A DNA stretch of 36,890 nucleotides, taken from contig CAUJEE010000097.1 in NCBI GenBank assembly GCA_963169215.1, positions 1 to 36,890 of the forward strand, in the 5' to 3' direction. The translations under genes and the position numbers were made by a program. Source of the DNA: Actinomycetota bacterium. Its GTDB lineage: Bacteria; Actinomycetota; Acidimicrobiia; Acidimicrobiales; Ilumatobacteraceae. Below the pieces are notes generated by a model, which was not told the origin of the DNA, ran no database searches, and saw nothing but the letters and a program-made list of their open reading frames with translations. How positions within the stretch are numbered: the first letter of the stretch is position 1; each line of letters starts with the position of its first letter. Below, one piece after another: positions 14,693-31,991 of the stretch.

Positions 14693-15952
14693 GTGATCCC
14701 TACGATCAAGCATGTAGAACGGTGGGCTGAGCCGTTCGTCGACCGCCTACTCGACGAGGAACCGGCGATTCTGCTTGAAGGCCCCCGGGGATCCGGCAAG
14801 TCCACTCTGCTTCGCTCGATCGCCCAACGACGGAACGCCCTCGTGCTCGACCTGGACGACGACAGCGTGCTGCAACTCGTTCGTGAGGACGTCCGTTCCG
14901 CGCTGGCATCCCCCGGTCTGGTGGCGATCGACGAGTTCCATCGCGCCCCGGAGGTTCTGTCCTTCGTGAAGCGCGTCGTCGACCGCGAAGGCGGTGCCGG
15001 CCGTTTCCTTCTCGCCGGGTCGGTGAGTTCGTTCCTGTTGCCACCCGGAACTGAAACGCTCGCCGGACGGGCGCAACGGCTTTCGCTCATGCCACTCGCC
15101 GCGGCGGAAACCTTCGCAGCGAAGCAGCGATGGTTGACCGAGCTGCTCAGCGGTGGCGAGCCACGCAACTTCCGCACGGCTCTCGAGCGAAGCGACGTCT
15201 TCGAGGTGGTCGCCGCAGGCGGGTACCCGGCTGCCCTTCGGCGCACCACAGCGGCACAACGAACTCGCTGGTTCGCTAGCTACTTGGCGACCGTGACCGA
15301 TCGGGATCTACCCGACCTCATCGACATCCGCCACCCTGGAGCACTGTCGCGGCTGTATCGCCTAATCGCTCAACGGACTTCGGCGACCGTGGTCAACACC
15401 GAACTTTCGCGTTCGCTGGACATCACCCAGCCGACAGCGTCCTCGTACCGACGGCTCTTGGAACGCCTGTACCTGACGACCGAGCTTCCCGGCTGGACGG
15501 TCGGAATCTCCGCCAAGGCCGGACACCGCGCGAAAGTCCACGTCAGCGACACCGGGCTCGCGGCCGGAGTGCTTTCGCTTTCGCCGCAACGCCTGGCCAC
15601 GGCTGCGATCGGCGGCGCGTTCCTGGAATCGTTCGTGGTCTCCGAACTGACTCGTCAGGCGACCACCATCGATGAAGCACTCACGTTCGCGCACTTCCGC
15701 GATCGCTCGGGGATAGAGGTTGACGTCATCATCGAACGCCCCGATGGCGGCGTGGTCGCCCTCGAGGTGAAGTCCGCTAGATCGGTGAGCTCACGTGACG
15801 CCAGCGGCCTGATCTTCCTGCGAGATCGGCTCGGCGAGCGATTCCAATGCGGCATCGTGCTCCACACAGGTCCGCTCACCGCACGCCTCAGCGAGCGTGT
15901 CTGGGCCGTTCCTGTCGCAGCACTGTGGGGCGGTGCCTCCAAGCCGGCTTGA
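14693..15952 (+). CDS. AAA ATPase with DUF4143 domain, copy 1
   Basis: A 419-residue protein from GTG 14693, preceded at 6 nt by TACCCT (14681-14686), so probably leaderless. The N-terminal AAA_14 domain has Walker A GPRGSGKS (30-37) and Walker B VAIDEFHRAPE. The middle carries a winged-helix-like segment (SLDITQPTASSYRRLLERLY). The C-terminal DUF4143 part ends in a nuclease-like core, GIEVDVIIERPDGGVVALEV, then KSA, matching the D...(D/E)xK arrangement of PD-(D/E)XK folds. Proteins of this type are common, strain-variable and of unknown role. A paralog lies at 30753-31991. The right end of the tRNA-Arg element and a repeat array lie just upstream. Confidence 0.88.
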   Translation: MIPTIKHVERWAEPFVDRLLDEEPAILLEGPRGSGKSTLLRSIAQRRNALVLDLDDDSVLQLVREDVRSALASPGLVAIDEFHRAPEVLSFVKRVVDREGGAGRFLLAGSVSSFLLPPGTETLAGRAQRLSLMPLAAAETFAAKQRWLTELLSGGEPRNFRTALERSDVFEVVAAGGYPAALRRTTAAQRTRWFASYLATVTDRDLPDLIDIRHPGALSRLYRLIAQRTSATVVNTELSRSLDITQPTASSYRRLLERLYLTTELPGWTVGISAKAGHRAKVHVSDTGLAAGVLSLSPQRLATAAIGGAFLESFVVSELTRQATTIDEALTFAHFRDRSGIEVDVIIERPDGGVVALEVKSARSVSSRDASGLIFLRDRLGERFQCGIVLHTGPLTARLSERVWAVPVAALWGGASKPA

Positions 15953-16375: not shown

Positions 16376-17617
16376 TCAGACGGTGACTTGCTCTTCGGCC
16401 TGCCCGAGGCACAGGCCCCAGCACGAGGGTCGCCCCACCAGGTCTTCCAGCGAGTCGGTGGCGAGGGCAGCTTCCGGCTCGCAGGCCGCCACCACCGCCG
16501 CCGGGCTGGCGTCGGGTCGGCGCACCACCACCCAATGCACCCCCGGGGCATCGGGGGCACCCGGGGCACACACAGCTCCGGGAACGGTGACGAAGTCGCT
16601 GTTGCCGTACAGCAGCCCATTCCAGAACTCCTCCACCCCGAACAGCGGACAAGGGGGAAGGCGCCCGCTGCCGAGACGCACCTCCGACAACGACTCCTCC
16701 GACAGACCGAAGCGTTCCATGCATGCCGCGTTGGCAGCAACCAGCCGACGCGAGGTATCGAACACGGCCTCCGCGATCGAGTCGTCGAACAGGTCGAGCA
16801 CCACCTCCACCACGTCGTCGATGGTCAACGACGGATCGAGCGCGAACAGGTGCTCAAGACTCTCATGCATCGTGTCGCGCGCCACCCAGGCGGCGCTGAA
16901 CCGCTCGACACGAGCTATCGCCTCTGACGCCTTGCCCGCCAGCCGCTCCAGAATCGCGACCACATTGTCGCCGAGTGGCCGCCGACCGTAGCGGCGAGCC
17001 ACCGTGAGGGCGCCCGCCAACCGTCCCGACGCCGACATGATGGGCACGCTCACGAACGACTGGAACACCAGTTGCTCGCTGTACTGGCGAAACTGCTGCG
17101 GCAACAGCCGCTCGAACTCCCTCGGCGAAGCGTGATGCTCGACCACCGAGCGGCCGTTGGCGAGCGTTGCCCCGGCCAATCCCTGATCGACCCGCGGCAC
17201 GGCTGCAGTGATGTAAGCCCCGAGCACCCCACGCGAAGCGGGGTCGACATCGAACCACGCCACCACCGGCGCGTGCTCTCCGCCGTCACTGAGCAGTCGC
17301 AACACGCACACCTCGCCGACGTTGGTGGCCACCCAGCGGACAATCAGGTCGAACACCGGCTGCGCCGACAATGTTGCCGACTCGATCAGTTCGTCGAGCT
17401 CCACCTCGAACTCGCCGTCGTCGGCCACTTCCACACGCGGCTGGCGCAGCCGCGAGGCCTCGGTTGCGGCAAGACGCGATCGCAGTATCTCGACCGCGGC
17501 CTCGGAGATCGAGTAGCCACTACCCACCCTTACGGCCACCAGATCGCCCGACCGCACATAGCGGTAGGCGGTCTGGTAATGCACGCCCAGGCGGTGGGCT
17601 GCCGACTTCAGATTCAT
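16376..17617 (-). CDS. HTH-GAF-PAS-like regulator, intact copy
   Basis: A 413-residue protein from ATG 17617 with GGAGGGG 8 nt upstream. Residues 2-45 are an excisionase/MerR-like HTH (LGVHYQTAYRYVRSGDLVAV, then GYSISEAAVEIL). Residues about 85-236 are GAF-like (VCVLRLLSDGGEHAPVVAWF, then FQSFVSVPIMSASGRLAGAL, ending AILERLAGKASEAIA). Residues about 278-385 look like a PAS-type sensor (SIAEAVFDTSRRLVAANAAC). It should be a one-component transcription regulator that senses a small molecule, light or redox state; the ligand is unknown. A paralog at 21581-22801 has the same layout and precedes a cobalamin-binding-fold protein. The MFS gene upstream is on the same strand, 139 nt away. Confidence 0.78.
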   Translation of the reverse strand: MNLKSAAHRLGVHYQTAYRYVRSGDLVAVRVGSGYSISEAAVEILRSRLAATEASRLRQPRVEVADDGEFEVELDELIESATLSAQPVFDLIVRWVATNVGEVCVLRLLSDGGEHAPVVAWFDVDPASRGVLGAYITAAVPRVDQGLAGATLANGRSVVEHHASPREFERLLPQQFRQYSEQLVFQSFVSVPIMSASGRLAGALTVARRYGRRPLGDNVVAILERLAGKASEAIARVERFSAAWVARDTMHESLEHLFALDPSLTIDDVVEVVLDLFDDSIAEAVFDTSRRLVAANAACMERFGLSEESLSEVRLGSGRLPPCPLFGVEEFWNGLLYGNSDFVTVPGAVCAPGAPDAPGVHWVVVRRPDASPAAVVAACEPEAALATDSLEDLVGRPSCWGLCLGQAEEQVTV

Positions 17618-20535: not shown

Positions 20536-21600
20536 CTATGCCAACGTGGCCAGCGCGTGGGCGACCGGCTCGTCGCAGTGCGGCACATCGGTGAAGGCGT
20601 TGGCGATTACGTCGAGCACCTCGCGCGCCGGCTGCACGGGTGAATCTCGCGACACGAGGAAGCCTCGGTACCAATCGGCCGCGTCGACCATGATCTCGAC
20701 CTCGGCGAACTGCACCGAACTGGTGAGCGCGTCGGCGAAGAACGCCGCCGGGGCAATGTCGCCGACAGCGCTTGCCGGCAGCGCGGCCGACAACGGGCCG
20801 CACGAGACGACGAGCTCGTCGCGCCGGGCCGCCACCTGCGATGCCGCCTCGCGCGAAGCGGAGGTGACTACCGACTCACCCGGCACAGCACTGGCGGTAG
20901 CCAACACCTCGCCGATGCCGCCCACGGTGGACACCCACGAGCCGATGCCGAGCCACCTGGCCCAGCGGCCATCCTTTCCGAACCCGCGGCCTCCGGCGGC
21001 CACCGCCAGCCCACGCTCACGGGCCACCTCCACCAGGTCGAATGCGCCCGAGAGCAAGGCCGGGCGCGAAGTGTGCACGACGACGGCAGCCACCGCTTGC
21101 GCTGCTGATGCGGCAAAGTCGAGCGCACTGCTCAGATCGGTGGCACTCACATCACCGCCCAGATCGACGACGTCCCACCCCTGGGCGTCGAGGCACATCG
21201 CCGCCACCTGCGCACAGAACGTGTGTCGCTCGCACAGTGGGGCGGCAATCACCACGACATCGTGGCCGCTCGCTGAGCCCTGTGGCCGCCAAGTCTCACC
21301 AAGTACGTGTTCGAACACTGCGCTGACCCGTTGCTGCGCATCGACATCGATCAGGTTTGCGTGCCACAGATCCCCGACCTCGCGCAGCACCGGCACGAAG
21401 AGAGCGGACAGGATCTGAGCATCCGGCAGGTCATGGCGCAGCAGATCACGTACCACTGCCTGCACCTGATCGCCGTTACCCGCCAACGCGAGGCGCAATA
21501 CGTTCTGCAGCACCTCCGGTGTCACCACTCGGTTCAACCGGCGCCCGCTGACCGCCGGGATCGGTCGACGCACCGGTGGGTCAGGCGTCGGTTCGGTCAC
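20536..21600 (-). CDS. Stand-alone cobalamin (B12)-binding-fold protein
   Basis: A 354-residue protein from GTG 21600, overlapping the end of the HTH-GAF frame by 20 nt. Residues about 27-102 form the four-helix B12-binding cap (LLRHDLPDAQILSALFVPVL, then REVGDLWHANLIDVDAQQ). Residues 112-240 form a Rossmann-like B12 domain with CERHTFCAQVAAMCLDAQGW, then DVVDLGGDVSATDL. His126 is the candidate lower axial ligand of the 'E-x-H' motif, but the following Gly is Cys. The cap lacks the usual Glu-His pair (Gln-Gln at 89-90). A C-terminal helical region of about 100 residues is unassigned. Related modules sit in CarH/LitR photoreceptors, where a HTH is fused; here it is separate. Confidence 0.8.
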   Translation of the reverse strand: MTEPTPDPPVRRPIPAVSGRRLNRVVTPEVLQNVLRLALAGNGDQVQAVVRDLLRHDLPDAQILSALFVPVLREVGDLWHANLIDVDAQQRVSAVFEHVLGETWRPQGSASGHDVVVIAAPLCERHTFCAQVAAMCLDAQGWDVVDLGGDVSATDLSSALDFAASAAQAVAAVVVHTSRPALLSGAFDLVEVARERGLAVAAGGRGFGKDGRWARWLGIGSWVSTVGGIGEVLATASAVPGESVVTSASREAASQVAARRDELVVSCGPLSAALPASAVGDIAPAAFFADALTSSVQFAEVEIMVDAADWYRGFLVSRDSPVQPAREVLDVIANAFTDVPHCDEPVAHALATLA

Positions 21601-22801
21601 TCGCTCGCCTCCGTCCCTGTGTGCGAACGTCGCTCGCGGAGTCAGCAGACTCGACGCAATCCGGCGGATCCGACGGAGCCACGCCCACCGCCACCACCCC
21701 GACGGGAGTTGCATCGGGGCGCCGCACCATCGCCCAGTGAAGGCCACCCGCGAACCCGCAAGAGACACAAGAGTCTTCTCCACCGGCGGGGAAGTCACCC
21801 GTCGCCAACAGCCGCGACCATGCCTTCTCGAAGCTGACCCCATCGAGGATGTACGAGCAGCCGCACTTGTCGAGATGCTCCGAGCCGATTCGGCAGCGGT
21901 CGGCAAAGGCCGCGTTGGCAGCCACCACCTCGCCGGAAAGGTCGAACACAGCCTCCGCCAAGGAGTCGTCGAGCAGATCGAACAACGTGTCGCTCACTGC
22001 ATCCAAGTCGACAGTGGGATCGATGGCGAGGAGTGCCTCGATGCTCTCGTGGAGCGAATCGCGGGCGACCCACGCGGCGCTGAACCGCTCGGCCCGCGCC
22101 AGTGCCTGCACGACCTTGGCTGCCAAGCGCTCAAGGATGCCGACAACGTCGTCTGGGAAGGGTGGAGCACCGTGACGTCTGGCCACCAGCAGGCTGCCGA
22201 TGACACGCCCAGCCGGCGACTTGAGGGGAACGGCAACGAACGACTGCAGCACAAGCAACTCGGCGTACGACAAGAACCGCGGCGGCACGCTGATGAACGA
22301 CTGCAGAGCCGGCAGGTGATGTTCCATGGTGGGGCGGTCCTCGGAGATCGTCAGCCGGGCAAGCCCTTCGTCGGTGCGCATCACCCCCTAACCCTGAATC
22401 GCCTCCACGATTGGCCGGGTTGCCGGGTCGGCGTCGAAGAGCGAGACCACGGGGGCGAAGGCGCCGTCCTCGCTGATCAGTCGCAGAACTCCGATATCGC
22501 CGACGCTGACTGCAAGCCAGCGGGTTACGGCGTCGAGCACGGGCTGCGCGGTCAACATCACCCCGCCGATCAGCGTGTCGAGTTCGGCACCGATGTCGTC
22601 GTCTGCGGGTGGCAACTCATGGTGCACGCTCAGCGCGGGCGAGTCCATCACCGCCAGGCGCTGGCGCAGAAGCTCGACCGCGCCCAAGGAGATGTTGTAC
22701 GAACCCCCCACCTTCACCGCCACCAGCTCGCCCGAGCGCACGTATCGATAGGCGGTCTGGTAGTGCACCCCCAGCATGCGCGCTGCGGTCTTCAGATTCA
22801 C
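21581..22801 (-). pseudogene. HTH-GAF-PAS-like regulator, second copy, interrupted by one in-frame TAG
   Basis: A 407-codon frame from GTG 22801 (AGAGGGGG about 7 nt upstream) aligns from end to end with the intact copy at 16376-17617. HTH: LGVHYQTAYRYVRSGELVAV. GAF-like part: LQSFVAVPLKSPAGRVIGSL. The PAS-like C-terminus has extra Cys (DKCGCSYILDG, CVSCGF). A single TAG at 22390-22388 falls where the intact copy has Ala in ITAAVPR; the frame is open and conserved on both sides. After the stop come GTG (22384) and ATG (22381), so two polypeptides by re-initiation are possible. Otherwise this is a very young pseudogene. It overlaps the B12-binding protein gene by 20 nt. Confidence 0.75.
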
Positions 22802-22827
22802 CACAGCGCCCCCCTCTTGGTCGCCCG

Positions 22828-22845
22828 GATACCCGTCATGGTATC
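22828..22845. promoter_or_regulatory. Perfect dyad GATACC-N6-GGTATC at the promoter of the HTH-GAF/B12 operon
   Basis: GATACC (22828-22833) and GGTATC (22840-22845) are perfect inverted arms 27 bp upstream of GTG 22801. They overlap TACCAT on the minus strand (22843-22838), which has -10 form. This is a good operator candidate for the encoded HTH protein. The dyad is not found upstream of the intact paralog. Confidence 0.5.
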
Positions 22846-30752: not shown

Positions 30753-31991
30753 ATGGCCTACCTCGATCGGCTCGCCGACGACAAGCTGCGACAGTTGCTG
30801 TCCGTCTTTCCGGCAGTGTCCATCGTCGGTCCGCGCGCGAGCGGCAAGACCACCTCAGCGAGCAGACTGGCCGCAGAGGTGGTGCGGCTCGACGAGCCGC
30901 GCGTGGCCAACGTGTTTCGCGCCGACCCCGACACCGCGCTCACCGGCCGGGCAGAACCCGCGCTGCTCGACGAGTGGCAGAACGTGCCCGAGGTGCTCGC
31001 TGCCGTCAAGCGAGCGGTCGACCGCCGCTCGCAGGCTGGTCGCTTCCTGCTCACCGGCTCGGTGAGCGCGGTGCTCGATGCAGCAGCCTGGCCCGGCACT
31101 GGCCGACTGGTGCAGGTACGCATGTTCGGCTTCTCGGTGCGCGAGCGGCTGGGGCTGGTGGCCGATTGTCCCACCCTGCAGGAGATGCTCTCCGGTGTCT
31201 CCTCGTTGCCGAGCGACCGGCCGGATCTCGGTGGCTACATCGATCTCGCGCTGCGTAGCGGGTTCCCCGAGGCCTCCCGAATCGCCGACGATTCAGCGCG
31301 TCGGCGGTGGCTCGACAGCTACCTCTACCAACTCGTCGCGCGCGACGTCGCCGCCGGCCGCGATCCCGAGCGGCTCACCCGCTACCTCCAGGCGTGGGCA
31401 TTGAACTCGGCAGGCTCGCCCGACGACACCACCATTCACGTCGCCGCCGGCATCGATCGCCGCACCCATCTGGCGTATCAGCAACTGCTGGCCAACCTGT
31501 ACGTGATCGAGCAAGTTCCGGCCTGGGCGTCAAACAGGCTCAAGCGTATGGTTCTCGCACCAAAGCGCTACGTGTGTGACCCGGCGCTGATGGCTGCAGC
31601 CGCGCGTTTCGGAAGATCCGACGTGCTCAACGACGCAGACCTACTCGGACGCCTGATCGACACCTTCGCGACGGCAGAGATCCGCGCTCACCTGGAGACC
31701 GAACCCGGCTCACCGCGGCTGGCCCACCTGCGCACCCCGGGCGGGCGGCAGGAGATCGACCTGATCATCGAGTACGACGGAGGGCGTCTGATTGCGATCG
31801 AGATCAAGGCCACCGCCACCCCGACGTTCGAGGACGCACGGCATCTCGCCTGGCTGCGCGATTTGCTCGGTGACAAGTTCGTGGGCGGCACCGTGCTACA
31901 CACCGGACCGGCCGTGATCGCGCTCGGTGACCGCATCTCGGCCGTCCCCATCTGTGCGCTGTGGTCGACACGGCCGCGCTCAGTTGGCTGA
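30753..31991 (+). CDS. AAA ATPase with DUF4143 domain, copy 2
   Basis: A 412-residue paralog of the gene at 14693-15952. ATG 30753 has TAGAGT 6 nt before it (30741-30746): predicted leaderless. Walker A is GPRASGKT (26-33) and Walker B PALLDEWQNVPEVL. The nuclease-like C-terminal core reads GGRQEIDLIIEYDGGRLIAI, then EIKATATPTFED, and the end, VLHTGPAVIALGDRISAVPI, matches copy 1 closely. The middle DUF4143 region is more divergent. It stands alone between DUF2817 and an oppositely oriented secreted protein. Such ATPases occur as strain-specific genes and their role is unsettled. Confidence 0.88.
   Translation: MAYLDRLADDKLRQLLSVFPAVSIVGPRASGKTTSASRLAAEVVRLDEPRVANVFRADPDTALTGRAEPALLDEWQNVPEVLAAVKRAVDRRSQAGRFLLTGSVSAVLDAAAWPGTGRLVQVRMFGFSVRERLGLVADCPTLQEMLSGVSSLPSDRPDLGGYIDLALRSGFPEASRIADDSARRRWLDSYLYQLVARDVAAGRDPERLTRYLQAWALNSAGSPDDTTIHVAAGIDRRTHLAYQQLLANLYVIEQVPAWASNRLKRMVLAPKRYVCDPALMAAAARFGRSDVLNDADLLGRLIDTFATAEIRAHLETEPGSPRLAHLRTPGGRQEIDLIIEYDGGRLIAIEIKATATPTFEDARHLAWLRDLLGDKFVGGTVLHTGPAVIALGDRISAVPICALWSTRPRSVG

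Follow-up and report, generated by a model that had tools for sequence, protein, structure and literature searches.

AerR serves the DNA-binding protein CrtJ as a B12 co-regulator (PMC9144470). Photocobilins bind adenosylcobalamin and biliverdin and can act on their partners by protein contact, the stand-alone members included, and diguanylate cyclases can be controlled by them (PMC10979010). In proteins of the CarH/LitR type, a MerR-type helix-turn-helix (HTH) and a B12 domain are present in one chain. A Glu-His pair contacts the adenosyl group in both CarH and the photocobilins. AerR lacks a globin domain, and CrtJ has a PAS-PAS-HTH layout with an HTH that differs from the one described here.

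The window, i.e., the whole stretch of 36,890 nucleotides that was analyzed, comes from the draft genome (249 contigs) of an actinomycetote of the family Ilumatobacteraceae. Two adjoining genes on its minus strand were examined. The first (22804-21581) encodes an excisionase/HTH_17-type HTH (PF12728, 7e-9), a GAF domain (PF01590, 3.5e-5) and a PAS-like domain (PF08448, 7e-4, under the Pfam cut-off), in agreement with the initial annotation, which had described an excisionase/MerR-like HTH joined to GAF- and PAS-like domains. Its start is a GTG at 22804 or 22801, with a Shine-Dalgarno-like AGGGGGG upstream. The second gene (20536-21600) encodes a photocobilin-like protein of 354 amino acids with a cobalamin-binding fold; it starts with GTG, has a GGAGG sequence 7 nt upstream and is open throughout. 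As previously described, this separate B12-fold gene lies directly downstream and overlaps the first by 20 nt (21581-21600, minus strand), a segment bounded by the B12 start codon (GTG) and the HTH-GAF stop codon (TGA). The layout thus differs from that of CarH/LitR, the HTH and the B12 domain being encoded by separate genes. Elsewhere in the window, an AAA_14/DUF4143 ATPase gene (Pfam) is present at 14693-15952 (plus strand), and a second open reading frame, comparable in length and having a Walker-A-like start, at 30753-31991 (plus strand).

The HTH-GAF gene had been treated as one open frame, a description that has to be abandoned: the frame is interrupted by an in-frame TAG (22388-22390, minus strand) within a part of the GAF domain that is variable, and this stop codon is absent from 15 aligned homologues. 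The first part of the gene (22388-22804, minus strand) encodes the HTH and the first half of the GAF domain and ends at the TAG, and the second (21581-22387, minus strand) encodes the rest of the GAF domain and the PAS-like domain in the same frame. The coding pattern carries on in this frame past the TAG, with the remainder forming an open reading frame (21581-22384) and with a GTG 3 nt and an ATG 6 nt after the stop codon. Re-initiation at this point is possible and would split a GAF domain. The interrupted copy is either decaying, or expressed as two pieces via re-initiation, or the product of an assembly or strain error, the last being a possibility because the genome is a draft. Due to the TAG codon, the window copy of the HTH-GAF and B12 genes may be nonfunctional. 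A structure prediction of the HTH-GAF protein was too poor for use (pLDDT of 56), and a search of solved structures with an HTH-GAF profile produced weak GAF matches only. In an alignment of homologues, the PAS-like domain was examined for Cys residues that might bind Zn or an Fe-S cluster; Cys pairs occurred in some paralogues, but as no column was conserved throughout, such a motif was discarded.

Upstream of the HTH-GAF gene there is a dyad, GATACC-N6-GGTATC (22828-22845). This repeat is exact, as had been reported, but its proposed location over a promoter gained no support, as no sigma-70-like promoter was found at the dyad region, and the dyad itself does not exceed what chance would give. 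Dyads of at least 6 bp with a spacer of 0 to 12 were present in 140 of the 230 160-bp tiles of the window, which as a whole contains 30 dyads with this 6-6-6 geometry; the sequence was not found upstream of the homologues. A 6-6-6 dyad of unrelated sequence, located at a comparable distance at C157a, was judged to be due to chance. Assignment as an operator was, therefore, not adopted, as dyads of this size are common in the window and the sequence lacks conservation upstream of the homologues; the dyad is a candidate operator only.

The B12 protein contains a four-helix cap (residues 28 to 103, approximately), a Rossmann domain (about 113 to 237) and a C-terminal globin-like helical domain (about 247 to 354). 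Pfam detected the cap (PF02607) over the cut-off and the Rossmann domain (PF02310) under it, and no Pfam match was obtained for the C-terminal 100 residues. The initial annotation had recognized the first two domains but missed the third. A profile constructed from the window protein and its counterpart in another genome of the genus, G049, matched the photocobilins SasPcob (8j2w, 8j2x) and AbDPcob (8j2y) over their length with an E value of 1e-28, CarH over the B12 domain only (7e-14) and AerR weakly (0.006). An AlphaFold model of the window protein (mean pLDDT of 84) matched SasPcob with a Foldseek E value of 4e-16 and a VIA Z score of 31.7 over 312 residues, as against a VIA Z score of about 16 over 200 residues for CarH. 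These full-length matches indicated that the protein has the photocobilin layout, in which a globin-like domain follows the B12 domain, in the stand-alone form known among photocobilins. For the NCBIfam CarH equivalog, the score was 59 bits against a cut-off of 400 bits. Judged by sequence and model, the B12 protein is related in structure to the photocobilins over its full length and does not represent half a CarH. A helical domain resembling the globin-like one was also seen in B12-binding proteins without an HTH from records labelled Acidobacteria, Latescibacterota, Thermoanaerobaculia and Planctomycetota (L078, L079, L082 and L084); in these, the domain order is reversed, with the helical domain N-terminal to the B12 domain.

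The adjacency of the two genes is not confined to the window. The initial annotation had proposed a search for a conserved neighborhood, and the pair was found to recur once more within the genus, in a genome where neither frame is interrupted: at locus L077 of G049, a B12 gene lies about 110 nt beyond an HTH-GAF gene on the same strand. Absence of the pair from related genomes, which the initial annotation had named as a refutation, was thus not observed, although on the strength of this single genome. The G049 and window proteins are 47% (HTH-GAF) and about 34% (B12) identical. No other gene of the window matched the 13-kb G049 locus, indicating that the adjacency of the pair has survived rearrangement of its flanks. 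Among 15 genomes of the genus, two contain the pair, six a single-chain CarH-type HTH-B12 protein and none both, numbers that are too small to prove mutual exclusion. Single-chain HTH-B12 proteins are common in the family, and most relatives in the genus and family with a B12 domain have it in this form. In two further genomes of the genus, G010 and G063, HTH-GAF genes are present, and a search for B12-domain proteins at an E value of 1e-8 found none. The pair was not seen beyond the genus among 397 genomes sampled from the order and 395 sampled from the class, and photocobilin-like proteins of other families had no HTH-GAF gene within their 1.5-kb flanks; hence, its known distribution is at present limited to a single genus.

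Alterations in the cobalamin pocket were as had been described: the axial His is present (E124-R125-H126), with Cys rather than Gly at the +3 position, and the cap lacks Glu-His. The latter pair is kept in 35 of 36 compared relatives, the exception having Glu-Arg, and is replaced by Gln-Gln in the window protein and Glu-Ala in G049. The published signature of light-responsive cobalamin-binding domains (SignatureFinder) consists of GxxW, EH, GxxH and GxxxP (PMC11796333). Only GxxW is present in the window protein (GDLW), the other three positions reading QQ in the cap, CERH at the axial ligand and GGDVS, while the G049 protein has both GxxW (GEMW) and GxxH (GEQH) and lacks EH (EA) and GxxxP (GTDVS). 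Features that the window protein shares with the photocobilins are the axial His, the cap Trp and, in the globin domain, the counterpart of the bilin-lining Trp296 of SasPcob. The position of SasPcob Asp270, likewise a biliverdin-site residue, aligns to a Pro in a poorly aligned region of the profile alignment. Despite an overall identity of about 34%, the window and G049 proteins agree exactly at cap residues Trp79-His80, at His126 and in the GG motif, and this agreement suggests that the pocket is still under selection. Four genomes of the genus (G000, G049, G010 and G063) were searched for cofactor-related genes. No heme oxygenase of PF01126, the one such family covered, and no PduO-type adenosyltransferase (PF01923) was found in them, while a CobA/BtuR adenosyltransferase (PF02572) was detected in all four, the match in the genome containing the window being only partial. 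The window protein differs from the photocobilins in the loss of Glu-His, GxxH and GxxxP, in the adjoining HTH-GAF gene and in a genome without PF01126.

The explanation that we tentatively favor, at somewhat less than an even chance, is that the two genes form one unit, in which an HTH-GAF-PAS regulator would be combined with a photocobilin-like corrinoid sensor in the manner of AerR and CrtJ, with this particular copy perhaps decaying. The analogy is with AerR/PpaA and CrtJ/PpsR of Rhodobacter, where a stand-alone B12 co-regulator likewise accompanies a sensory (PAS) DNA-binding protein; unlike AerR, the window protein has a globin domain, and the sequence match to AerR is weak. The B12 protein would act on the HTH-GAF-PAS protein by contact, as AerR does on CrtJ. 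It probably binds a corrinoid base-off via His126, under a cap holding Trp79-His80. As Glu-His, by which the adenosyl group is gripped, is absent, photolysis of adenosylcobalamin is the less likely signal, and the protein may rather sense the presence of a corrinoid or a different upper ligand, hydroxo or methyl. We infer the corrinoid binding, protein contact, ligand and target promoter of such a pair with the same reserve. Of the two-protein sensory system originally envisaged, the unit is supported by recurrence in G049, but light sensing is weakened by the motif losses. In favor of one unit are the intact pair in G049, the 20-nt overlap with its good ribosome-binding site, the photocobilin fold match, the known action of stand-alone photocobilins and of AerR on partners, the retention of cap Trp, cap His and axial His in both paired proteins alongside their shared lack of Glu-His, the use of either the pair or the single-chain protein within the genus and the presence there of a CobA/BtuR adenosyltransferase; against it are the limitation to two genomes, the HTH-GAF paralogues and homologues without a partner, the TAG codon, the Rossmann score under the Pfam cut-off and a GGDEF-EAL gene of G049 as the possible real partner of the B12 protein.

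Somewhat unlikely, but the best of the alternatives, is a loss of the ligand by the B12 fold, which would now serve as a protein-protein module, or decay of the whole unit. There is precedent in the heme-binding SCHIC domain of AppA, which departed from B12. The absence of EH, GxxH and GxxxP, the nonsense codon in the partner gene and the long branches on which both paired proteins lie in the B12-domain tree are consistent with such a loss, as is the weak Pfam score, since a Rossmann domain below the cut-off may mean that corrinoid binding has been lost. The conservation of the axial His, the cap Trp-His and the GG motif in two proteins of such low overall identity argues against it.

It is quite improbable that the two genes are adjacent but have no function in common, with the B12 protein acting elsewhere, for instance on a cyclic di-GMP enzyme. 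In G049, a PAS-PAS-GGDEF-EAL gene (L077, 7161-9722, plus strand) lies about 110 nt downstream of the B12 gene in the same orientation, and its product could be a second partner since photocobilins elsewhere are fused to diguanylate cyclases, and control of such enzymes by photocobilins is known (PMC10979010). The GGDEF-EAL gene, however, has no counterpart beside the window copy, and an HTH-GAF gene followed by a B12 gene is the sole adjacency conserved between the two loci. HTH-GAF genes do also occur alone. Three intact paralogues are present in the genome containing the window, one in the window itself (16376-17617, minus strand; 413 amino acids, 49% identical) and two in tandem on contig C157 (L035, 2730-3893 and 4051-5214), and all three lack a B12 partner. 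A tandem arrangement was also observed in G063 (L037, 1501-2760 and 2887-4047). Outside the genus, clear full-length HTH-GAF proteins were found in two distant families only among the order and class genomes, and no B12 gene was present within 1.5 kb at the eight loci examined.

Origin of the pair from a split CarH was rejected because of the globin domain and because HTH-GAF proteins in other families of the class lack B12 neighbors. The two systems have in common the B12 cap and Rossmann domain; unlike CarH/LitR, the B12 chain here is separate from the HTH, carries a globin domain and lacks Glu-His. A B12-domain tree, in which the pair occupies a long branch between the CarH-like and photocobilin groups with a support of only 93/88, does not decide the question. 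A true light-sensing photocobilin, binding adenosylcobalamin and a bilin and switching the HTH-GAF regulator by light, is very unlikely despite the whole-length fold match to SasPcob and AbDPcob and the retention of the axial His, the GxxW Trp and the Trp296 equivalent, as EH, GxxH and GxxxP are missing from the window protein and EH and GxxxP from that of G049 (PMC11796333), and as the four genus genomes have no PF01126 heme oxygenase.

Our preferred reading, a regulator and corrinoid sensor acting as one unit, can be extended to a more specific proposal that is itself unlikely: a photocobilin-like protein may have shed its adenosyl-binding motif and become the dedicated sensor of a separate HTH-GAF factor, forming a two-protein B12 regulator in Actinomycetota that senses a non-adenosyl cobalamin and replaces the single-chain CarH-like protein of its relatives. 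If the pair works, the recently described photocobilin fold would be linked to direct control of transcription through a separate DNA-binding partner, and the adenosyl-binding motif could be lost while the rest of the pocket is retained. Such a pair would also help to separate sensing of light through B12 from sensing of the presence of B12 among the many unstudied B12-fold proteins.
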